Part shown: positions 1-49,034 of the stretch, one piece after another | How positions within the stretch are numbered: position 1 is the stretch's first letter | Layout: every line of letters starts with the position of its first letter | IMG/VR virus record: IMGVR_UViG_3300034066_000841 | Span: 1-49,034 of that record | Reading direction: 5' to 3' (one strand) | DNA length: 49,034 bases | Source: a virus | Notes under the pieces: generated by a model | Database searches by the model: none | What the model was told of the DNA's origin: nothing | Seen by the model: only the letters and a program-made list of their open reading frames with translations | Program-made: the position numbers and the translations under genes

Positions 1-127
1 CCCGGGCGAACTCGGTGATCGTCATGTCGTAGCCCCAGCAGCTGTAGGCAATCTGGCCAAGCTGGAAGCGGTCGGTGGTGGTGGCGGCGGTGGTCATGAT
101 CGGTCGGGGTGGTGGGGGTCGCCCCCC
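1..127. repeat. Terminal direct repeat, left copy (identical to 48908-49034)
   Basis: Bases 1-127 match 48908-49034 exactly; the match ends where the left copy has a seventh C after the GTCG and the window stops. The left copy holds the first 32 codons (97 down to 1, minus strand) of the gene that is complete at 48651-49004, plus its leader hairpin. A clean 127-base end overlap is typical of a circular contig from a k=127 de Bruijn assembly, so the molecule is probably circular or circularly permuted, with 48,907 unique bases. Confidence 0.95.
114..127 (-). promoter_or_regulatory. GCGA-tetraloop leader hairpin, copy A
   Basis: On the minus strand a 5-bp GGGGG/CCCCC stem is closed by a GCGA loop. 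It sits 17 bases upstream of the ATG at 97 (the gene complete at 48651-49004). Between hairpin and ATG there is CACCCCGA and no Shine-Dalgarno sequence. It belongs to the hairpin family described in the findings. Confidence 0.75.
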
Positions 128-196
128 CTTGACTCCATCAGTATGGCAAGGCGACTGGCCGCGCGGCTGGCCGCTGTCGCAAACCGACACAATCAG
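128..196 (-). promoter_or_regulatory. Conserved early promoter block, copy A
   Basis: Reading leftward: a distal block TGTGTCGGTTTGCGAC (about 193-175), then GGCCAGTCGC, then a CATACT -10-like hexamer at 141-146 and TGATGGAGTCA, leading straight into the leader hairpin. The same order and spacing occur upstream of 950 and 1829. There is no clear -35 TTGACA. It would drive the minus-strand genes that cross the circle junction (48651-49004 and onward). Confidence 0.6.
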
Positions 197-417
197 CGCA
201 GTGTCGGGTTTCGCTGTTCAGCCGTCAGCGATGGGTGGTCGTCCCATCCTTCCTCGGGCTCGCTGCAGCTGGCGTGCTCTTTGGTGAACTGCTCGCCGAG
301 CCACGCGGCCTCGTGCAGTGGAATCGGCAGCTGCAGCTCCTGCTCAGCACCGCACAGCTCGCAGCGGAATCGCGGCGGCTGTGCGCACAGGTCGATCACG
401 CAGTGGTCAGTCGTCAT
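193..417 (-). CDS. Small Cys-containing protein of unknown function
   Basis: A 74-residue product. I chose the ATG at 417 because it overlaps the stop of the upstream gene (ATGA). A CELC pair near residue 20 and a later HASC near residue 50 could bind one zinc ion, with an acidic, polar C-terminus. I do not recognise a family. It is the last gene before promoter block A, in a run of tightly packed minus-strand early genes, so a small host-interaction or regulatory role is possible but unproven. Confidence 0.6.
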   Translation of the reverse strand: MTTDHCVIDLCAQPPRFRCELCGAEQELQLPIPLHEAAWLGEQFTKEHASCSEPEEGWDDHPSLTAEQRNPTLR

Positions 418-683
418 GCTTCCAGGGCTGGCGTCCATACCCGCTCGGCCAGCAGCACCGGCGCCAAGGAGGCCCGGCCCAGGGGAGCCGCTTCTTCTGA
501 CTCGAAGGCCACGTTGTAGCGAACCCGGCAGGTCTTGAGGCCCCAGCCATCGGCGTACAGGGTGACAGTCTTGGCGGTCCGCTTCATCACCACCCAGAAC
601 GTCTCAGCCTGGGCATCGGTGACCCAGCTCATGCGGTAGCAACGGCCGGTCTCAAAAGCAGCAACGGTGGTGGGATAGCTCAT
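414..683 (-). CDS. Small early protein of the W-x-x-D / V-x-KRT type
   Basis: An 89-residue product starting at the ATG at 683. The N-terminal half has G-R-C-Y-R-M-S-W-V-T-D followed by FWVVMKRTAKTVTL. This matches the layout of the protein at 48651-49004 (CWGYDMT, then FARVIKRT and ITLDL), so the two look like distant paralogues. From memory, similar SWGYD...VVKRT proteins are scattered through phages and plasmids with no known function. Its leader carries hairpin 705-720 but no separate promoter block. The stop overlaps the next start (ATGA). Confidence 0.65.
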   Translation of the reverse strand: MSYPTTVAAFETGRCYRMSWVTDAQAETFWVVMKRTAKTVTLYADGWGLKTCRVRYNVAFESEEAAPLGRASLAPVLLAERVWTPALEA

Positions 684-704
684 GGATCTCGGGGTGAAGG
701 TGGT

Positions 705-720
705 GGGGCCTCGCGGCCCC
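705..720 (-). promoter_or_regulatory. GCGA-tetraloop leader hairpin between genes
   Basis: Minus-strand GGGGCC-GCGA-GGCCCC, a perfect 6-bp stem. It is followed by CACCACCTTCACCCCGAG and then the ATG at 683. It lies only 8 bases past the stop of the upstream gene (729-950) and no promoter block precedes it. There is no U-tract, so it does not look like an intrinsic terminator. Confidence 0.75.
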
Positions 721-728
721 GGTTGCAA

Positions 729-950
729 TCAGGCCGCCAAAACCAGCACGGCGCCCCAGCTCTTAAGGTCGGCGCCGATCTTGGCGCGCTGCAGGAAGCT
801 CACTTCCTCGGGCACCTGCACCACCCAGTCCATGCGGGTGATGTCGCCGGCGTGCAGCAGGGTGAAGCCGGCGGGGAAGTGAACTCCAAACCGGGCGGTC
901 ACCAGGTCCTCGGTGAGGCTGGTGACGGTGAAGGTCGTGGTCTTGGCCAT
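729..950 (-). CDS. Hypothetical early protein
   Basis: A 73-residue product from the ATG at 950, preceded by a recognisable GGAG at suitable spacing, which is unusual for this gene block. The sequence alternates beta-like hydrophobic segments (TTTFTVTSLTEDLVTARFGV, then DWVVQVPEEVSFL) and ends in a hydrophobic AVLVLAA tail. I do not recognise a family. It is the first gene after promoter block B and hairpin 970-985. Confidence 0.6.
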   Translation of the reverse strand: MAKTTTFTVTSLTEDLVTARFGVHFPAGFTLLHAGDITRMDWVVQVPEEVSFLQRAKIGADLKSWGAVLVLAA

Positions 951-969
951 CTGAGGCTCCGGGGTGGCG

Positions 970-985
970 GGGGCATCGCTGCCCC
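970..985 (-). promoter_or_regulatory. GCGA-tetraloop leader hairpin, copy B
   Basis: Minus-strand GGGGCA-GCGA-TGCCCC, a perfect 6-bp stem, followed by CCACCCCGGAG and the ATG at 950. It starts 12 bases after the CATACT hexamer, so it would lie at the extreme 5' end of the transcript if that hexamer is the -10. Confidence 0.78.
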
Positions 986-1056
986 TCTGACTCCTTAAGT
1001 ATGCCATGACGACCGGCAGCGTGCGTCGGGTCGCGTCACAAGTCGAAACAATCAGG
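986..1056 (-). promoter_or_regulatory. Conserved early promoter block, copy B
   Basis: Minus strand: TTTCGACTTGTGAC (about 1049-1035), CGCTGCCGGTCG, GGCATACTTAAGGAGTCA. The CATACT hexamer is at 999-1004. The distal block lies 37 bases from the -10-like element, against 36 in copies A and C. It overlaps the end of the gene that stops at 1052. Confidence 0.62.
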
Positions 1057-1234
1057 CCAGCATCCGGCGGACCGTAGTTCGGCTCACGCGGAGGCGCTGC
1101 GCAATCGCAGCCTGGGTCATGCCGCTCCGGCGCCAACGTCGCGCGCGCTGCTGGCGGGATTCGCTCAGCCACAGCAGCACGCCGACCACCACCAGCAGGG
1201 GGAACAGCAGCAGGTAGATCGCGGTCGTCGTCAT
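1052..1234 (-). CDS. Membrane-anchored mini helix-turn-helix protein
   Basis: A 60-residue product from the ATG at 1234 (the stop of the upstream gene overlaps as ATGA). Residues about 4-22 form one strong membrane segment (AIYLLLFPLLVVVGVLLWL). Residues about 38-60 form a resolvase/recombinase-like HTH (MTQAAIAQRLRVSRTTVRRM) after a basic RRWRRSG linker. The whole protein is therefore a membrane anchor plus one HTH. Function unknown; a membrane-tethered DNA-binding or DNA-positioning role is an inference. Its stop abuts promoter block B. Confidence 0.7.
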   Translation of the reverse strand: MTTTAIYLLLFPLLVVVGVLLWLSESRQQRARRWRRSGMTQAAIAQRLRVSRTTVRRMLA

Positions 1235-1545
1235 GCCGCCTCCAGCCACTCTTGATCCACGCGGTAGCCGTCGCGCAGCAGGCGTCGATACAGCTGGCGT
1301 GCCCGGGGCTTCAGCATGGTGCGCTGCTGGCCGTCGTAGCAGACGTGGCGCAGCCGGCCGTCCTCGGATCTGAACAGCGTCTGCCAGGTCACGGTCATGA
1401 CATCGCTCATGTCGTTTGACTCGAACGTGGCGACCCGTTGCGTGATCGTGCCGTCAGTGCCGGCCAGGGGCTCTGGCTCGCACGCCAGCGTGACGCGGGT
1501 CACGTTGTAGTCGCCCCAGCGGCTGCGGAAGGTGATGGCGCCCAT
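1231..1545 (-). CDS. Hypothetical early protein
   Basis: A 104-residue product from the ATG at 1545, which overlaps the previous stop (TGATG). The N-terminal 60 residues look beta-rich (WGDYNVTRVTLACEP, VMTVTWQTLFR); the C-terminal 40 are basic and helical (MLKPRARQLYRRLLRDGYRVDQEWL). I recognise no domain. Second gene of the three-gene run behind promoter block C. Confidence 0.6.
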   Translation of the reverse strand: MGAITFRSRWGDYNVTRVTLACEPEPLAGTDGTITQRVATFESNDMSDVMTVTWQTLFRSEDGRLRHVCYDGQQRTMLKPRARQLYRRLLRDGYRVDQEWLEAA

Positions 1546-1829
1546 CAGAACACCTCCCACAGCTTGTGCTCGCAGTAAGCCTGCTCCATGGCCATGCCCA
1601 CAAAGGTGGCGTCGCCCATGCGCTCGGGCCGGCGCTCGGTGTCTTCCCAGCCGGCCTGGAAGCCGTAAGCGTAGGGAGGGTTGAAGTGGGCCTCGCCCAA
1701 TTCGGCCAGCTCATCGCGCACAGCGCAGCGGCCGCCAACCCAGCGGCACTGGCCGTCGTTGGCGCGGCGGAAGCGCGCGCCGCGGCCATCCATGTAGCCC
1801 TGGTTGAAGCTCCCGCGTGGGGTCTGCAT
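1545..1829 (-). CDS. Hypothetical early protein with GY/GW-DG motifs
   Basis: A 94-residue product from the ATG at 1829. It has GYMDGRG near residue 11 and GFQAGWEDTERRP near residue 57, separated by a segment with two cysteines. The G-Y-x-x-G...G-W pattern is loosely like the ribosome-modulation-factor (RMF)-type small proteins of phages and bacteria, but the similarity is weak and I do not assign that role. First gene behind promoter block C. Confidence 0.6.
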   Translation of the reverse strand: MQTPRGSFNQGYMDGRGARFRRANDGQCRWVGGRCAVRDELAELGEAHFNPPYAYGFQAGWEDTERRPERMGDATFVGMAMEQAYCEHKLWEVF

Positions 1830-1857
1830 TTCAGTCGCGGGCTCTGGCCCGCCGTGT
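1830..1857 (-). promoter_or_regulatory. Second leader hairpin in copy C
   Basis: Minus-strand GCGGGC-CAGA-GCCCGC (1837-1852) between the GCGA hairpin and the ATG at 1829. Here it replaces the ACCCC element seen in the other leaders. No Shine-Dalgarno sequence is visible. Confidence 0.5.
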
Positions 1858-1871
1858 GGGCATCGCTGCCC
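1858..1871 (-). promoter_or_regulatory. GCGA-tetraloop leader hairpin, copy C
   Basis: Minus-strand GGGCA-GCGA-TGCCC, a perfect 5-bp stem, beginning 12 bases after the CATACT hexamer. Confidence 0.75.
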
Positions 1872-1936
1872 TGAACTCCCTCAGTATGGGCTGGCGACTG
1901 GCAGCGTGCACAGTCGCCGTAACAAACCGACATGAA
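1872..1936 (-). promoter_or_regulatory. Conserved early promoter block, copy C
   Basis: Minus strand: CATGTCGGTTTGTTAC (1934-1919), CACGCTGCCAGTCGCC, CCATACTGAGGGAGTTCA; CATACT at 1884-1889. The rest of the 1937-2032 gap up to the stop at 2033 holds no gene that I can support. Confidence 0.62.
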
Positions 1937-2032
1937 TAGGGGCCGGGCCTCCGATACCGCATCTCGGCGAGTCGCACCCCAGGGCGATCGCGGCGGTGCC
2001 CATCCTTACGGGTAGGGCCGACCCGGCTTCCC

Positions 2033-2497
2033 TCAGGGTATGTCACCCATCGGACTGCTCACCACTTCATAGCGATCCAGCAGCCGCCGATACCGCCCAC
2101 TCAGGAAGTTGCGCAGCGTTCCGGGGTGGACCTGCAGACGCTCAGCCCACTCGTTCTGCTGCCCGACGCGGATCATCACCTTCGCCTTCGGCTGCTGCAG
2201 ATCCTTCAGCACCCAACGCGGATAATCACGCTCTGGCCGCGGCTCATCGCCAGGATGCTGTTTGATCCACCAGAGGAACGTCCCGCCAGCGCCATAGCTC
2301 ACGTACTCGATCAGTCCATGCTTCCGCAGGCGCAGCATCGAAGCGTTGATGTTGGATCGGTGCGTGGCGAATCGCTCAGCCACGTCCGTCAGCAGATACC
2401 ACCCGGGCCCGATTGCACTCAGGTGGACCAGGTTCAACACGTCATAGACCCCATAGCGCTCGCGCAGCTGGGTCAGATACTCAGGGTCGGTGATCAT
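2033..2497 (-). CDS. Winged-helix-like DNA-binding protein
   Basis: A 154-residue product from the ATG at 2497. Residues about 33-75 (GWYLLTDVAERFATHRSNINASMLRLRKHGLIEYVSYG, in parts) read as a winged-helix domain: helix, recognition helix, then a beta wing. Residues about 112-140 (EWAERLQVHPGTLRNFLSGRYRR) look like a second HTH. It is a plausible transcription or replication regulator for the early block. I recognise no repressor family. The leader has the extended GCGA hairpin 2515-2540. Confidence 0.65.
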   Translation of the reverse strand: MITDPEYLTQLRERYGVYDVLNLVHLSAIGPGWYLLTDVAERFATHRSNINASMLRLRKHGLIEYVSYGAGGTFLWWIKQHPGDEPRPERDYPRWVLKDLQQPKAKVMIRVGQQNEWAERLQVHPGTLRNFLSGRYRRLLDRYEVVSSPMGDIP

Positions 2498-2514
2498 TAG
2501 GAGTCGGGGTAGAT

Positions 2515-2540
2515 GGGCCCGCCCATCGCTGAACGGGCCC
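2515..2540 (-). promoter_or_regulatory. Extended GCGA-tetraloop leader hairpin
   Basis: Minus-strand GGGCCCG-TTCA-GCGA-TGGG-CGGGCCC: a 7-bp outer stem plus a 4-bp inner stem (two G-U pairs), closed by GCGA. It is followed by CTACCCCGACTCCTA and the ATG at 2497. A weak copy of the early promoter core (GACGGCATACCC, about 2552-2563) lies upstream inside the SSB 3' end. Confidence 0.72.
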
Positions 2541-10642: not shown

Positions 10643-11272
10643 ATGGCAGCCAAACTCAAGCCGGCGATGGCCAACCGCATAGAGGTGTGGCCCATCGAAA
10701 AGCTGGTGCCTTACGAGCGCAACGCCCGCACCCACAGCGCAGCGCAGGTGGCGCAGCTGGCGGCGAGCATCACTGAGTTTGGTTTCGTCAACCCGATCCT
10801 GGTGGACACCGGCGCTGGCGTAATCGCCGGGCATGGGCGGCTGGCCGCGGCCAAGGACCTGGGCCTCAAGGAAGTGCCGGTGGTGGTGCTCGATCACCTG
10901 AGCCCTGAGCAGCGCAAGGCGTATGTCATCGCCGACAACAAGCTGGCGCTGAACGCCGGCTGGGACATGAGCCTGCTGCAGGAGGAAGTGATCGGCCTGC
11001 AGCTGGCAGACTTTGACCTGAGCCTGCTGGGCTTCGACGAGTCAGAGCTGGAGGGCCTGCTGGGCGACGACGACCTGGAAGATGGCGTGGACGCCCGTGA
11101 CGCGGTGGACGAGCACGATGACGCCAACACGCAGGTGGTGATCGGCAGCTACCGATTCCCGCTGGACCGCGACGCCTACTTCCAGTGGCGGGACGCCATC
11201 CGTGAGGAAGTGGGCTTCGAGGAAGACGACATCAAAGCCGAGATTCGCCGCCGCCTGCAGATCCCCGAATGA
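10643..11272 (+). CDS. ParB-like N-terminal domain protein
   Basis: A 209-residue product. Residues about 15-110 form a ParB/sulfiredoxin-fold domain: EKLVPYERNARTHS, VAQLAASITEFGFVNPILVD, then the signature G-V-I-A-G-H-G-R-L-A-A-A. The C-terminal half is very acidic (GLLGDDDLEDGVDARD). There is no ParA partner, and the chromosome-partition HTH and C-terminal dimer domain are absent. In phages such domains usually precede or are fused to DNA methyltransferases. First gene of a chain of overlapping genes leading to terminase. Confidence 0.85.
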   Translation: MAAKLKPAMANRIEVWPIEKLVPYERNARTHSAAQVAQLAASITEFGFVNPILVDTGAGVIAGHGRLAAAKDLGLKEVPVVVLDHLSPEQRKAYVIADNKLALNAGWDMSLLQEEVIGLQLADFDLSLLGFDESELEGLLGDDDLEDGVDARDAVDEHDDANTQVVIGSYRFPLDRDAYFQWRDAIREEVGFEEDDIKAEIRRRLQIPE

Positions 11273-12792
11273 CGATCAAGCTGGTGCCACTGGGTGAGCT
11301 GAACCCGTCGGCCTACAACCCGCGCACGGCTGACCCGAAGCGGCTGGACCTGATTGAGCTGAGCCTGCGCAAGCTGGGTTTCGTGCTGCCGGTGTTCGCC
11401 GACGCCACGGGCGAGATCCTCAGCGGTCACCAGCGCCACCTGGTAGCGACCCGCATGGGCCTGTCGGCGATGCCGGTGATGTTCACGAAGCCGCTGGACC
11501 TGGCGAAACGCAAGAGCATCAACATCGCGTTCAACCGCGGCACCAACGACATGGCGGCGGTCGACACACCGGCCAGCATGACGGAAGCGCTGCAGCGCGC
11601 GGACATTCAGGGGCTGGCTGCGAAGCTGCCGGACCGCGAGGGCGATGACCTGTTCCCGTGCATGGCGGCGACGCCGGTGCGGGTGAAGGAGCTCACGAAG
11701 GTCAACAACGGCCGGTGGGTGCAGTACGCGAAGAACACGGCCCGGGTGCTGGCCGGTCACGGCGTGACAATGCCGATCGTTTGCACCAGGGACAACGTGG
11801 TGGTGAACGGCATCGGCCGGCTGGAGTACGCGGCCGAAAAGGGCATCGAGACAGTGCAAGTGGTCTACATCACTGAGGCGGAGCGGGACTTCACCTACGC
11901 GATGCTCAACTACCTCACGATGGATTTCAACATCCACGAGAGATACGAGGACCTGCTGCGATACAACAGCTTCCGCCGCAGCCGCGGAGCTCGCAGCTAC
12001 CTGGGCCGGTGCTTCACCTTCCCGCTGCTGGGGCACAAGAGCAGCAAGACGTTTGACGTGAACCAGCCCGAGAGCCGGGCGCTGTGGATCAAGACGTTCG
12101 GGCGGACCGTGCTGGACTTTGGCGCGGGCACGTTGAGCGAGACGCGCATCCTGCAGGGCGTGGGTGTGGATTGTGTGCCGTTCGAGCCGTTCAGGCTGGA
12201 CGGGGAGACGATTGACCGGGCGAAGAGCGTGGCGACCACCCGTGAGTTTTTCGCACGTGTCGCAGACGGGACTCAGTTCGACGCAATTTTTTTGAGCGCG
12301 ATCATGAACTCGGTGCCCTTCTACCAGGACCGGGTGCACATCCTGCGGATCATCGCGGCGCTATGCGGTCCCCGCACCCGGGTCTACGCGGTGAGCGCCA
12401 GCACTGACCAGACCGGCTATGAGCTGACGGCGGGCCGGCAGTATCTGAACAAGGGCGACGCCAGCCGGTTGCAGTTCAGGTTGGACTACGAGCCACGGGT
12501 GACGATCGCCGACTTCAGCGAAACGCCCAAGGTGCAGAAGTATCACACGCCGGAAGAATGGTACGAGCTGTGGAAACAACAGTTCGAGAAGGTCAAAGTA
12601 ACTGAAAGCGCAAACAATGTTGAATGCATCTGCGGGAAACCGATCAAACCAAGCGATGAAGATCTAAGTGCTGCACTTTGTTTCGAGTTCGACTTGCCGT
12701 ATCCTGACGGCCATAGAATGGACCTGGCTAAAGAGGCACTTGCCGCTTTCGGCCAGCGATTGAAGCGCGAGCTTCCTTACCCCAAGCGATGA
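11269..12792 (+). CDS. ParB-like / class I methyltransferase fusion protein
   Basis: A 507-residue product. Residues 1-75 are ParB-like (GELNPSAYNPRT..., ILSGHQRHLVATRMGL). Residues about 125-200 look like a second, diverged ParB-like module (TMPIVCTRDNVVVNGIGRLEYAAEKGI). Residues about 275-400 form a Rossmann SAM-binding domain (TVLDFGAGTLSETRIL as motif I, FDAIFLSAIMNSVPF further on). The last 75 residues (CICGKPIKPSDEDL...) are lower in GC and of unknown fold. A DNA or nucleotide methyltransferase guided by ParB-like modules is my inference; no DPPY-type motif is visible. It overlaps both neighbours as ATGA. Confidence 0.75.
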   Translation: MTIKLVPLGELNPSAYNPRTADPKRLDLIELSLRKLGFVLPVFADATGEILSGHQRHLVATRMGLSAMPVMFTKPLDLAKRKSINIAFNRGTNDMAAVDTPASMTEALQRADIQGLAAKLPDREGDDLFPCMAATPVRVKELTKVNNGRWVQYAKNTARVLAGHGVTMPIVCTRDNVVVNGIGRLEYAAEKGIETVQVVYITEAERDFTYAMLNYLTMDFNIHERYEDLLRYNSFRRSRGARSYLGRCFTFPLLGHKSSKTFDVNQPESRALWIKTFGRTVLDFGAGTLSETRILQGVGVDCVPFEPFRLDGETIDRAKSVATTREFFARVADGTQFDAIFLSAIMNSVPFYQDRVHILRIIAALCGPRTRVYAVSASTDQTGYELTAGRQYLNKGDASRLQFRLDYEPRVTIADFSETPKVQKYHTPEEWYELWKQQFEKVKVTESANNVECICGKPIKPSDEDLSAALCFEFDLPYPDGHRMDLAKEALAAFGQRLKRELPYPKR

Positions 12793-13259
12793 CTGACACA
12801 ATCCTGTTGGACCTCAACAGCACCTACGCCGGCAACGCCAGCGAGGTGCACATCATGAACAAGGGCATCTACTACGTGGCCCGCGAGACCTATCGCAGCT
12901 GGCTGACCGAGCTGCTGCGCGGCCGGCACGTGATCATGATGACGAGCCGGCCCGAGAGTTACCGCATCCAAACGCTGGAGCACATCCGCGAGCTTGAGAA
13001 CTGGCTGCCCGACCTGGCGCTGTTCAATCGGTGGCGCCTGCGAGCGCCGGACGCGAAACTCAAGATGCTGCAAGAGGTGGTGTTCCCGCAGTTCGGCACG
13101 CCGGATCAGCGGAGCTACCTGGCGATCGAAAGCAACTACAAGACCCAGGACATGTTCAAGCGCCAGGGCATCCGCACAACCACGCAGCAGGAAGTCAACG
13201 CCAACGCTGGGCTGCTCGAGGGGCCGCCAGCGATGGTCACGAACCTGAGCCTGTTCTGA
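12789..13259 (+). CDS. Degenerate HAD-like protein
   Basis: A 156-residue product. The N-terminal ILLDLNST resembles HAD motif I (DxDxT) with the second Asp replaced by Asn (D8, N10, T12). MMTSRPESY matches motif II, APDAKLKML supplies a possible motif III lysine, and AIESNYKTQDMF stands where DDxxxD is expected. The fold is thus recognisable while two catalytic acids are changed. It could be an altered nucleotidase, a polynucleotide 3'-phosphatase relative, or a non-catalytic subunit. It overlaps both neighbours. Confidence 0.65.
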   Translation: MTDTILLDLNSTYAGNASEVHIMNKGIYYVARETYRSWLTELLRGRHVIMMTSRPESYRIQTLEHIRELENWLPDLALFNRWRLRAPDAKLKMLQEVVFPQFGTPDQRSYLAIESNYKTQDMFKRQGIRTTTQQEVNANAGLLEGPPAMVTNLSLF

Positions 13260-13912
13260 TGGAGATTCCCAGTAACTGGACCTTTGAGACCGCTGAGGTC
13301 GCTAAGGGCTTCGACCGGCACGTGCGTGAGCAGCTGCCGTGGTACGACCTGGCGACCAACGCGATCACCCACATTGCCCGCCACTACATCAGCGAGGGCG
13401 GGCTGGTGTACGACGTGGGTGCAGCTACTGGGAACATCGCCCGCGCTTTGCAGCCGGTGCTCGACGACCGCGGCGCGCGGATCATCAACATCGAGCCATC
13501 GGCGGCAATGGTTGAGAAGTTTGACGGCCCTGGCGAAGTGATCTGCGCCAGGGCTGAAGACGTGATCTACGAAGGGTTCGACCTGGCGGTGGTCTTCCTG
13601 ACGCTGATGTTCATCGAGCCGCGCCGTCGCGTGCGGGTGATGAACCACTTGCGCCAGTCATGCCGACCAGGTGGAGCCATCATCGTGTTCGACAAGCTGG
13701 AGCCGGCGGGTGGCTACCTAAGCACGGTGTTCTACCGGTTGACGCTCGCGGGCAAGCGCGCTGCGGGTGTGCCGCCGGCGGAGATCATCGAAAAGGAGCT
13801 GAGCCTTTCAGGCGTGCAGCGCCCGATCAACGAGGGGCAGCTGAGCGGTAACGCGCACCTGTGGTTCAAGTTCGGCGACTTCGCCGGCTGGGTGATTGAA
13901 AGGCCGGCGTGA
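13259..13912 (+). CDS. CmoA-like class I SAM methyltransferase
   Basis: A 217-residue product from the ATG at 13259, overlapping the upstream stop (TGATG). VYDVGAATGNIARAL is motif I, NIEPSAAMVEKF the acidic loop, and CRPGGAIIVFDKLEP follows motif post-III. The N-terminal GFDRHVREQLPWYD and the C-terminal LWFKFGDFAGWVIE recall the carboxy-SAM synthase CmoA family from memory. If it really makes carboxy-SAM, a neighbouring transferase could install a carboxymethyl group; that is speculative. A plain methyltransferase is the conservative call. Confidence 0.75.
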   Translation: MEIPSNWTFETAEVAKGFDRHVREQLPWYDLATNAITHIARHYISEGGLVYDVGAATGNIARALQPVLDDRGARIINIEPSAAMVEKFDGPGEVICARAEDVIYEGFDLAVVFLTLMFIEPRRRVRVMNHLRQSCRPGGAIIVFDKLEPAGGYLSTVFYRLTLAGKRAAGVPPAEIIEKELSLSGVQRPINEGQLSGNAHLWFKFGDFAGWVIERPA

Positions 13913-42286: not shown

Positions 42287-42481
42287 TCAGTCCTCAAGTT
42301 CGCATTCCAGATCCATGCAAGCGCTGATGAGGGCATCGACCAGCTCATTCGAAATGATCTGATCCCACTGTTCCTCAGTGGTGCCGTCACGCAGTGCCTG
42401 CAAGGCAGCCACAACTGATTCAGCGGAGCAAATCACTGTGGCCATCTGGCCAAGCGCCTCGATGGCGGTGCGGGTATTCAT
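42287..42481 (-). CDS. Hypothetical small acidic protein
   Basis: A 64-residue product from the ATG at 42481. Two or three helices (AIEALGQMATVICSAESVVAALQAL, WDQIISNELVDALISACMDLE) and an acidic C-terminus (CELED). No family recognised. It has its own leader hairpin and terminator, so it is an independent transcript between int and the late operon. A lysogeny-related role is conceivable from its position only. Confidence 0.65.
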   Translation of the reverse strand: MNTRTAIEALGQMATVICSAESVVAALQALRDGTTEEQWDQIISNELVDALISACMDLECELED

Positions 42482-42501
42482 TTTTCTAGGTGCGGGGTAC
42501 A

Positions 42502-42515
42502 GGGCGTCTCCGCCC
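42502..42515 (-). promoter_or_regulatory. GAGA-tetraloop leader hairpin
   Basis: Minus-strand GGGCG-GAGA-CGCCC, followed by TGTACCCCGCACCTAGAAAA and the ATG at 42481. Same architecture as the GCGA family with a different GNRA loop. A TTTAGTG stretch upstream might be the -10. Confidence 0.65.
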
Positions 42516-46640: not shown

Positions 46641-46840
46641 CGAATCGCTCGAAGTTCGGTGGTCCAGCCCCAGCACATCCGCAGCAGCGCGGCGCGCTCC
46701 AGGGCCTGGTCGATGGTGTCTGACAGCCACGCCGTTTTGGCGTCATCGCACAGCAGCAGCGGCATCGGAATCAGCGCATCGCCGGCGTGGCCGGCTTCAG
46801 TGCTGATGAACTTTTGCCCGCGCATCAGGGCGTATCTCAC
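46637..46840 (-). CDS. Hypothetical protein
   Basis: A 67-residue product from the GTG at 46840 (GTGA overlap); an ATG at 46825 is the alternative. RYALMRGQKFISTEAG, LIPMPLLLCDDAKTAWLSDTIDQALERAALL. No domain recognised. Confidence 0.55.
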   Translation of the reverse strand: MRYALMRGQKFISTEAGHAGDALIPMPLLLCDDAKTAWLSDTIDQALERAALLRMCWGWTTELRAIR

Positions 46841-46995
46841 GGCTGGAGCCCCGCCTTTGCCAGCTGATTGCAGGCGCGCTGCACGCCCGCTCTGCAGTCC
46901 CGCCGCGTCAGGTCGTTCAGGGTGCTGGTGATGGAGTACCAAAATCCGGCACTCAGGGCGAGGCACAGCAAACTCGCGGAAATCTTTGGTCGCAT
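46837..46995 (-). CDS. Small membrane or secreted protein
   Basis: A 52-residue product from the ATG at 46995. KISASLLCLALSAGFWYSI is a membrane or signal segment, then TSTLNDLTRRDCRAGVQRAC with two cysteines. The 13-base gap upstream holds CACCCC but no hairpin. Confidence 0.55.
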   Translation of the reverse strand: MRPKISASLLCLALSAGFWYSITSTLNDLTRRDCRAGVQRACNQLAKAGLQP

Positions 46996-47008
46996 GGTAA
47001 GTGGGGTG

Positions 47009-47338
47009 TCAAAGGGTGAGGTAGAGGCCGGTGCTCTGCTCGAACAGGCGCACCAGGTCTTCGGCGTACACGTCGCGGTCAAGCGCCACCACAGGGGTGA
47101 GCTTGAGGGTCTTCGGGCTGAACTTCACCAGGTAGAAGCCGTAAGTGTCGGAAGCGTGGTCGTAAGCCACGCGGCACACGTTGGCCTTGCGGCTGCCCTT
47201 GAACTGGAAGCTCGCCACAGTGCGCCGCTCATCGCGTGCGTCGTAGCTGAAGCCGTGGGCGCCAACCATCGCAGCCAGCCGACCCTTGCCGCCCATCTGG
47301 GCAAACACGGTCTCTGCAATTTGCAGTGGTTCGGTCAT
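47009..47338 (-). CDS. Hypothetical early protein
   Basis: A 109-residue product from the ATG at 47338. Beta-rich: MVGAHGFSYDARDERRTVASFQFKG, ANVCRVAYDHASDTYGFYLVKFSP, then an acidic VYAEDLVRLFEQST. First gene after promoter D and hairpin 47354-47367. No family recognised. Confidence 0.62.
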   Translation of the reverse strand: MTEPLQIAETVFAQMGGKGRLAAMVGAHGFSYDARDERRTVASFQFKGSRKANVCRVAYDHASDTYGFYLVKFSPKTLKLTPVVALDRDVYAEDLVRLFEQSTGLYLTL

Positions 47339-47353
47339 GGTCTCAGGGGTGAG

Positions 47354-47367
47354 GGGCGTCGCCGCCC
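47354..47367 (-). promoter_or_regulatory. GCGA-tetraloop leader hairpin, copy D
   Basis: Minus-strand GGGCG-GCGA-CGCCC, followed by CTCACCCCTGAGACC and the ATG at 47338. Confidence 0.75.
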
Positions 47368-47440
47368 TTGCCTTCTAAGTATTGCACCGCGACTGGCAGC
47401 GCGCCACTCCTGCAACGACCTGTAACAGTCGCCGCCCCTA
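47368..47440 (-). promoter_or_regulatory. Conserved early promoter block, copy D
   Basis: Minus strand: CGACTGTTACAGGTCG (about 47433-47418), GCGCTGCCAGTCGCGGTGC, AATACTTAGAAGGCAAG. The core GCTGCCAGTCGC is identical to copy C. The distal block is 8 bases further from the -10 than in A and C. Confidence 0.58.
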
Positions 47441-48245: not shown

Positions 48246-48593
48246 TCAGATCTGCTGGATGCGGACGGTAGCAACGCCGTCGAGCGGCACGCCCAGTCGA
48301 TGGGCAGCGCCAGCGCTCAGGTCGATGCTGTTGCAGTCGCAGCGGTCAGTGACGCGCACGGTGAGCACACGGCCGCGGTGGCTGACGCGCACCGGCGTGC
48401 CGCATGGCAACCACGGATGTGCAGCTGACACATCCCAGTGGCGGTAGGTGCCGCCGCAGGCGGTCTGCCGGCCGTGATACCACCCGTCGTAGACCGTGGC
48501 GGTGACAGATCGGCCGTGGTCGGCGTTGTGGTGTGCCTGAGCAGGCTGCAGGATCAGGGCCGCAGCAAGCAAGGCTCCTCGAAGTAAAAGCAT
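48246..48593 (-). CDS. Secreted RlpA-like double-psi beta-barrel protein
   Basis: A 115-residue product. Residues 1-20 are a signal peptide (LLLRGALLAAALILQPAQA, AQA cleavage). The rest is a DPBB domain: ATVYDGWYHGRQTACGG, GTPVRVSHRGRVLTVRVTDRCD, and NSIDLSAGAAHRLGV. The V-x-D-R...IDLS-x-x-A-x-x-L-G pattern is that of RlpA, a periplasmic lytic transglycosylase in some bacteria. No SPOR domain. A role in the infected cell's envelope is inferred. Confidence 0.82.
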   Translation of the reverse strand: MLLLRGALLAAALILQPAQAHHNADHGRSVTATVYDGWYHGRQTACGGTYRHWDVSAAHPWLPCGTPVRVSHRGRVLTVRVTDRCDCNSIDLSAGAAHRLGVPLDGVATVRIQQI

Positions 48594-48613
48594 GGCAATG
48601 GGGTGGGAGTGAT

Positions 48614-48631
48614 GCCCCGGTCGCCCGGGGC
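48614..48631 (-). promoter_or_regulatory. GCGA-tetraloop leader hairpin of the RlpA-like gene
   Basis: Minus-strand GCCCCGG-GCGA-CCGGGGC, a perfect 7-bp stem, followed by TCACTCCCACCCCATTGCC and the ATG at 48593. No promoter block precedes it within the 57-base gap. Confidence 0.75.
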
Positions 48632-48650: not shown

Positions 48651-49004
48651 TCAGTCCCAGTGGTTGTAGCGCACGGGGCGGCCGCTCCAGGGGTGCCATA
48701 CGGGGGCACCGGCCCAGCGGGCGGTCAGCAGGTACTCGTTGCCCTGGCTGTCGCGTTGGATCTTGAAGCGCACGGGGTCTGCGCCCAGGCTGGTGTCGCT
48801 CGGCACGCAGTACCCAGAAGCGGGAGTGCCGGCATCGCCCAGCTCTGCAACGCGCTCGCCTTCGCCCAGCAGGTCGAGGGTGATGAAGTGCTCGGTGCGC
48901 TTGATCACCCGGGCGAACTCGGTGATCGTCATGTCGTAGCCCCAGCAGCTGTAGGCAATCTGGCCAAGCTGGAAGCGGTCGGTGGTGGTGGCGGCGGTGG
49001 TCAT
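48651..49004 (-). CDS. Early protein of the WGYD / KRT type
   Basis: A 117-residue product from the ATG at 49004. LGQIAYSCWGYDMTITEFARVIKRT and FITLDLLG, then an acidic stretch and YLLTARWAGAPVWHPWSGRPVRYNHW. From memory, SWGYDQT...VVKRT proteins are widespread, short and uncharacterised in phages and plasmids. The 414-683 protein is a second, diverged copy. Its promoter and hairpin (copy A) lie across the circle junction at 114-196. Confidence 0.7.
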   Translation of the reverse strand: MTTAATTTDRFQLGQIAYSCWGYDMTITEFARVIKRTEHFITLDLLGEGERVAELGDAGTPASGYCVPSDTSLGADPVRFKIQRDSQGNEYLLTARWAGAPVWHPWSGRPVRYNHWD

Positions 49005-49034
49005 GATCGGTCGGGGTGGTGGGGGTCGCCCCCC
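48908..49034. repeat. Terminal direct repeat, right copy
   Basis: Identical to 1-127. Remove one copy when circularising. Confidence 0.95.

Follow-up and report, generated by a model that had tools for sequence, protein, structure and literature searches.

In bacterial trans-acting small RNAs whose loop seed is rich in C or G, the seed is directed against a short 5'-leader motif at the ribosome-binding site, while the ompA mRNA of E. coli carries a 5'-terminal stabilising stem-loop, that is, a GC hairpin few nucleotides from the mRNA 5' end. Phages also encode structured RNAs, including the CI RNA of P4, which is grouped with c4. In the c4 antisense RNA of P1/P7, likewise structured and phage-encoded, the loops are the complement of the ribosome-binding region in phage mRNA (PMC12197685). 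Many non-structural genes of cluster K mycobacteriophages carry, at the position of the ribosome-binding site, a short conserved motif known as the start-associated sequence, which also has an extended form (SAS/ESAS); an inverted repeat precedes about half of the copies, whose function is unknown (PMC3203893, PMC12699233). SAS has the 13-bp consensus GGGATAGGAGCCC, adjoins start codons and contains a Shine-Dalgarno sequence, and in its authors' view there is little to support the formation of an RNA hairpin by ESAS (PMC3203893). Siphovirus gene control in picocyanobacteria is poorly understood. Here we describe a hairpin-ACCCC unit ahead of early phage genes, together with a structured RNA carrying the complementary GGGGU loop, in the IMG/VR virus record IMGVR_UViG_3300034066_000841, analysed over its whole stretch of 49,034 nucleotides (hereafter the window).

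All eight hairpins that an initial annotation had placed on the minus strand are present in the window (Table 1) and all are predicted to form stem-loops. As that annotation had also reported, seven of them are followed by ACCCC, located 3-9 nt past the stem and 6-12 nt ahead of ATG, the exception being the hairpin at 1858-1871. In the leader of the gene downstream of the latter (1545-1829), as well as in that of its ortholog in contig L217, a second conserved hairpin, GCGGGC(CAGA)GCCCGC, stands in place of ACCCC. When a strict rule is applied (GNRA loop, at least five Watson-Crick pairs, up to 12 nt, ACCCC, 4-13 nt, ATG), the window contains eight units, compared with a mean of 0.00 per dinucleotide shuffle (100 shuffles), and an ATG lies downstream in all eight cases of hairpin plus ACCCC. 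Seven strict units belong to the minus-strand early region; the remaining one, on the plus strand at 12762-12775 ahead of gene 12789, had been overlooked. Other claims need adjustment. Specifically, the lack of a Shine-Dalgarno sequence holds as a tendency and not as an absolute, since the unit before 950 carries GGAG after ACCCC; the hairpin-free ACCCC reported ahead of 46995 exists, with the gene starting at 46996; and the GNRA loop is a family trait of the GC-rich members, not beyond them. A CATACT/AATACT -10-like box precedes four window hairpins (114, 970, 1858 and 47354). The units at 705, 2515 and 48614 are intercistronic with no clear -10-like box, as had been noticed, and consequently the unit is not tied to a promoter. 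Nor are the hairpins intrinsic terminators, again as annotated, for the stems are followed by ACC/ACA and ACCCC, with no U-tract. Two further candidate explanations were rejected: the hairpin at 42502 is not plain coding sequence, given the in-frame stop in the L092 leader, and ACCCC is not an alternative partner of the hairpin 5' arm, being constant while stems vary.

IMG/VR, searched both by pattern and by protein similarity, yielded many further carriers of the unit; G002, G003, G004, G007, G008, G010 and others each contain 2-6 model matches. The covariance-model search of relatives, which had been put forward as a refuting test, found multiple copies with enrichment at start codons. The proposed 5'-leader RNA element, specific to phages and placed at translation starts, is thus supported: it is seen in relatives, hosts lack it and its stems covary. 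Five of six relatives exceed their own shuffles in strict units; the exception is the AT-rich G005, whose longer, purine-rich loops leave it with no GNRA unit. In the phages of 32-37% GC (G005, L219-L221), the order is promoter, hairpin, ACA, ACCCC, 7-9 A-rich nt and ATG, all consecutive; in the 34%-GC phages the GNRA loop is lost, with ACCCC and the 5' hairpin being kept, and the unit as such persists across phages of 34% to 67% GC. A -10-like box was matched in 22/62 units and ends 8-12 nt ahead of the stem, so that transcripts are predicted to begin at the hairpin.

The compensatory stem conservation that the initial annotation had suggested finds support in orthologous leaders, picked by protein similarity (window versus L217/L249, plus the 42481 gene family), where the hairpin is kept while the stem changes in sequence or length on both arms. 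For example, the unit H leaders keep their stem through a G-C/A-U swap, the L217 ortholog of hairpin D keeps both hairpins with the first stem replaced, and the window 46996 gene has an ortholog in G005 with a full hairpin unit. Counting pairs on the unit stems gave complete pairing and double changes at all five pairs, a result that is supportive only, because the sequences had been chosen for pairing. A pattern scan of genome contigs for the unit returned scattered chance matches. ACCCC leaders were not found in P-SSP7, Syn5, S-PM2, S-CBS2 and S-CBS3 (T7- and T4-like cyanophages being among those tested), which rules out a general cyanophage feature, and the published papers on S-LBS1 and P-SS2 make no mention of such an element.

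The most constant part of the unit is ACCCC, rather than the GNRA hairpin. Over 702 genes from 16 unit-bearing phages, ACCCC peaks 10-14 nt ahead of ATG, a Shine-Dalgarno-like position, and ranks third among positional 5-mers, behind AGGAG and GGAGG. The two signals rarely occur together, as only 1/51 ACCCC genes also has a Shine-Dalgarno sequence versus about 7 expected (P=0.004). Pairing of ACCCC with 16S rRNA was ruled out: it has no complementarity to the 3' tail, with duplexes of -2.4 to -4.7 versus -13.4 kcal/mol for the Shine-Dalgarno control, and the sole 16S GGGGU is internal, inside helix 44. Host genes show no ACCCC enrichment (15 versus 11.7 expected in 850 genes of 10 CsoS2-positive alpha-cyanobacterial/picocyanobacterial genomes) and a search of 386 cyanobacterial genomes for the unit pattern gave 2 matches versus 1 for the reversed pattern; these counts rule out a host element.

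ACCCC leaders were also observed in particular gene families. Several genes of a family of membrane-like proteins of about 50 residues, with a DC-AGV--AC signature (window 46837-46996, minus strand; orthologs in G002, G004-G008, G010 and L220), carry leader ACCCC. The PHROG 9437 protein encoded at window 47009-47338 (minus strand) is conserved in cyanophages of 64% and 34% GC and in an Ochrobactrum phage, and its cyanophage leaders carry ACCCC except in L217 (ACCTC). The minus strand of L295 (G009) contains repeated promoters CCTGCTACAATAC, followed by mostly hairpin-free ACCCC leaders.

Inspection of all ACCCC/GGGGT sites in G005 brought to light a structured RNA of about 90 nt, which in the window lies directly after gene 2033-2497. 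In G005 this RNA is intergenic and endowed with a promoter, a strong fold (z = -4.7), an intrinsic terminator and the apical loop UGGGG-U; L220 carries it at the corresponding place, and a promoter and terminator of its own are visible in these two AT-rich phages only. Three elements make up the alignment of ten copies: a closing stem, a GNRA-looped hairpin and a second, long hairpin whose apex carries GGGGU, exactly complementary to ACCCC. Of the 17 pairs that can be aligned, 10 show changes on both sides; the covariation scores are not reached by any of 500 shuffles and are lost once the partner is shifted by one base; the pair counts are limited to alignable helices because RNAalifold mis-modelled hairpin 2. 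The single-sequence fold of the window copy is no better than shuffles, and its predicted structure rests on sequence comparison across copies. No covariance-model score at or above the gathering cut-off was obtained against 4227 Rfam families.

A covariance model of the RNA detected a strong copy in 20/38 records, including G005 and every searched record with two or more unit-model matches. Each unit-bearing record has one strong copy, 11 of these not having been part of the training set (E 9e-7 to 2e-17), and none was found in four relatives sharing exonuclease or RecT but devoid of units. An RNA-only search of IMG/VR returned new contigs, with strict units at 6/12 model-positive loci versus 0/47 model-negative loci from the same scan (P=2e-5). 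GGGGU is present in 24/26 distinct copies, and in 10/11 of those not selected for it, on an underlying stem that is replaced or divergent; in many copies the loop reads GGGGUG or UGGGGU. No match to the RNA pattern turned up in 14 picocyanobacteria. The predicted RNA is undescribed and co-occurs with the units.

The occurrence of a complementary GGGGU-loop RNA in the same phages turns the cis element into a probable cis/trans pair. On balance, we favour the view that the hairpin-ACCCC unit is a phage-specific leader element in which ACCCC would be the target of the phage-encoded structured RNA. If transcribed, this RNA would pair through its GGGGU loop with the (C)ACCCC(A/G) that lies 11-17 nt ahead of AUG in many early mRNAs of the phage; pairing would set ribosome access and hence the translation of early leaders, and the 5' hairpin may serve as protector and insulator. 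Activation appears somewhat less likely than negative timing or a shut-off of early translation, or than immunity mediated by RNA in these temperate phages. Cyanobacterial Hfq is reported to be no RNA chaperone (PMC10989914), so that pairing would proceed unaided or via another factor. A more far-reaching version, which we regard as doubtful, is that the RNA acts in trans as an adaptor or gate that reads ACCCC via GGGGU and replaces the Shine-Dalgarno sequence for early genes, thereby creating a private, switchable start code.

Several observations weigh against the proposed pairing. Complementarity was itself a search criterion, the RNA having first been spotted via GGGGT sites; no such selection applies to its later conservation and co-occurrence with the units. 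Within the GC-rich window, early and late leaders are not separated by duplex energy (P=0.25), and a reversed loop scores equally; moreover, predicted folds let part of the loop pair internally (CC:GG), and the copies of G007 and G404 have no GGGGU. ACCCC-rich leaders with no detectable RNA occur in S-H1, KBS-S-2A, S-CBS1 and S-LBS1, likewise in G009 and several fragments, and RNA-free relatives keep a weak ACCCC excess (8 versus 3.7, the carriers having 48 versus 11.0). Shared ancestry could lie behind part of the unit-RNA co-occurrence. In addition, the RNA of many GC-rich phages lies between cistrons, with the ATG of another small gene following 15-30 nt later, which makes cis action possible.

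A possible though tentative alternative is a leader working alone, in which the 5' hairpin protects the mRNA and the unstructured A/C-rich ACCCC segment is a non-Shine-Dalgarno ribosome landing site; the RNA would then have no connection with the unit or affect nothing but its downstream gene in cis. ACCCC indeed takes the Shine-Dalgarno position and rarely overlaps with that signal, it is found unaccompanied by a hairpin in G009, at RecT starts and at window 46996, as well as in phages lacking the RNA, and past the hairpin the leaders of AT-rich phages are composed almost only of A and C. On the other hand, hosts make no use of ACCCC, a landing site of this kind would find no complement in the 16S tail and the only GGGGU in helix 44, and the conserved GGGGU loop and its co-occurrence with the units would be left unexplained.

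The loop is equally unaccounted for if a phage protein, for instance a single-strand binding protein, binds hairpin and ACCCC as a translational operator, which we consider unlikely. Repression of this type is established in other phages (T4 gp32, f1 gene V protein), and no genes other than exonuclease, RecT and SSB are common to nearly all unit-bearing phages; these three, however, are found in unit-free relatives too (L100), and neither a shared small regulator nor a small RNA-binding protein common to all unit phages was found. GNRA-type loops, early operons and nearby promoter-like boxes would also befit lambda boxB-like antitermination sites in early transcripts, but the fixed distance to start codons, the intercistronic copies before single genes, the variable loops of AT-rich phages, the constancy of ACCCC and the fact that no boxA-like element was seen render this highly improbable. 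Least probable of all are DNA operators or lineage-specific inheritance of sequence without RNA function: all carriers do fall in one broad phage group, yet pairing is kept despite differing stem sequences, the loops show strand specificity, with GNRA on the mRNA side, and the unit is retained from 34% to 67% GC.

As regards its genomic context, the window is the genome of a temperate siphovirus related to picocyanobacterial phages. Its minus strand encodes integrase, RecT, a RecE-like exonuclease and SSB, its plus strand terminase, portal, head and tail genes, and the nearest named phages are all Synechococcus siphoviruses (S-LBS1 by primase; KBS-S-2A, S-H1 and S-CBS1 by exonuclease). The ends of the record share an exact 127-bp repeat (1-127 = 48908-49034), which in an assembly points to a circular or permuted genome, here a circular one of 48,907 bp; the hairpin at 114-127 consequently recurs at 49021-49034. 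Two tandem genes with ParB-like nuclease/methyltransferase domains occupy 10643-12792 of the plus strand. Two unit-bearing phage contigs contain a tRNA-Met-like gene (L217, 14655-14728) and a truncated copy (L283, 11928-11984), possible attachment sites. A family of proteins of about 70 residues with a KOW/SH3-like GD-VYV pattern and no Pfam match occurs in S-H1 (2529-2750), KBS-S-2A (13090-13317), S-CBS1, S-LBS1, G002, G004, G008 and G010.

Table 1. Leader units, predicted promoter boxes and structured RNA of the window
Feature	Position	Strand	Details
Unit A	95..127	-	hairpin 114-127 (GCGA), ACCCC 106-110, ATG 95-97; gene 48651-49004 in repeated-end coordinates
Unit B	681..720	-	hairpin 705-720 (GCGA), ACCCC 691-695, ATG 681-683; intercistronic
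Unit C	948..985	-	hairpin 970-985 (GCGA), ACCCC 961-965, ATG 948-950
Hairpin D	1827..1871	-	hairpin 1858-1871 (GCGA), no ACCCC; second hairpin 1837-1852; ATG 1827-1829
Unit E	2495..2540	-	11-bp hairpin 2515-2540 (GCGA), ACCCC 2506-2510, ATG 2495-2497; intercistronic
Unit F	47336..47367	-	hairpin 47354-47367 (GCGA), ACCCC 47346-47350, ATG 47336-47338
Unit G	48591..48631	-	7-bp hairpin 48614-48631 (GCGA), ACCCC 48600-48604, ATG 48591-48593; intercistronic
Unit H	42479..42515	-	hairpin 42502-42515 (GAGA), ACCCC 42494-42498, ATG 42479-42481
Unit I	12762..12791	+	hairpin 12762-12775 GAAGC(GCGA)GCTTC, ACCCC 12779-12783, ATG 12789
Hairpin-free ACCCC	46994..47008	-	ACCCC 47004-47008 ahead of ATG 46996, small membrane-like protein gene
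CATACT -10-like box ahead of unit A	140..145	-	putative promoter, from sequence and spacing
CATACT -10-like box ahead of unit C	998..1003	-	putative promoter, from sequence
CATACT -10-like box ahead of hairpin D	1883..1888	-	putative promoter, from sequence
AATACT -10-like box ahead of unit F	47378..47383	-	putative promoter, from sequence
Structured RNA	1942..2027	-	closing stem; hairpin 1 with GNRA loop (GUAA 2006-2009); hairpin 2 with apical CCUGGGGU (GGGGU 1976-1980)

If the proposed pairing between GGGGU and ACCCC is true, these phages would possess a regulon run by base-pairing of one phage RNA with a leader motif repeated at the ribosome-binding position. The structured RNA adds a new RNA family for annotation, the cis/trans pair is directly testable, and a similar arrangement may explain start-associated repeats in other phages. 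In this respect SAS/ESAS is the closest description in terms of layout, namely a start-adjacent motif at a subset of non-structural genes. However, the cyanophage motif is ACCCC without AGGAG and departs from the SAS consensus; moreover, the cyanophage unit has clear covariation and a complementary structured RNA, whereas no matching trans RNA is described for SAS/ESAS. The 5'-terminal stem-loop of the ompA type resembles the unit in being a GC hairpin near the predicted mRNA 5' end, but the cyanophage hairpin is coupled to ACCCC, repeated and also intercistronic. Like bacterial trans-acting small RNAs, the cyanophage RNA has a conserved loop whose complement recurs in several leaders at other sites of its genome; the difference is that its target motif is repeated ahead of the phage's own genes. 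In terms of mechanism, the closest system is c4 of P1/P7, together with P4 CI, in which the loop of a phage RNA faces the ribosome-binding region of a phage mRNA. These RNAs, however, act on one operon through longer complementarity, whereas the cyanophage RNA would address many leaders via a loop of 5-6 nt.

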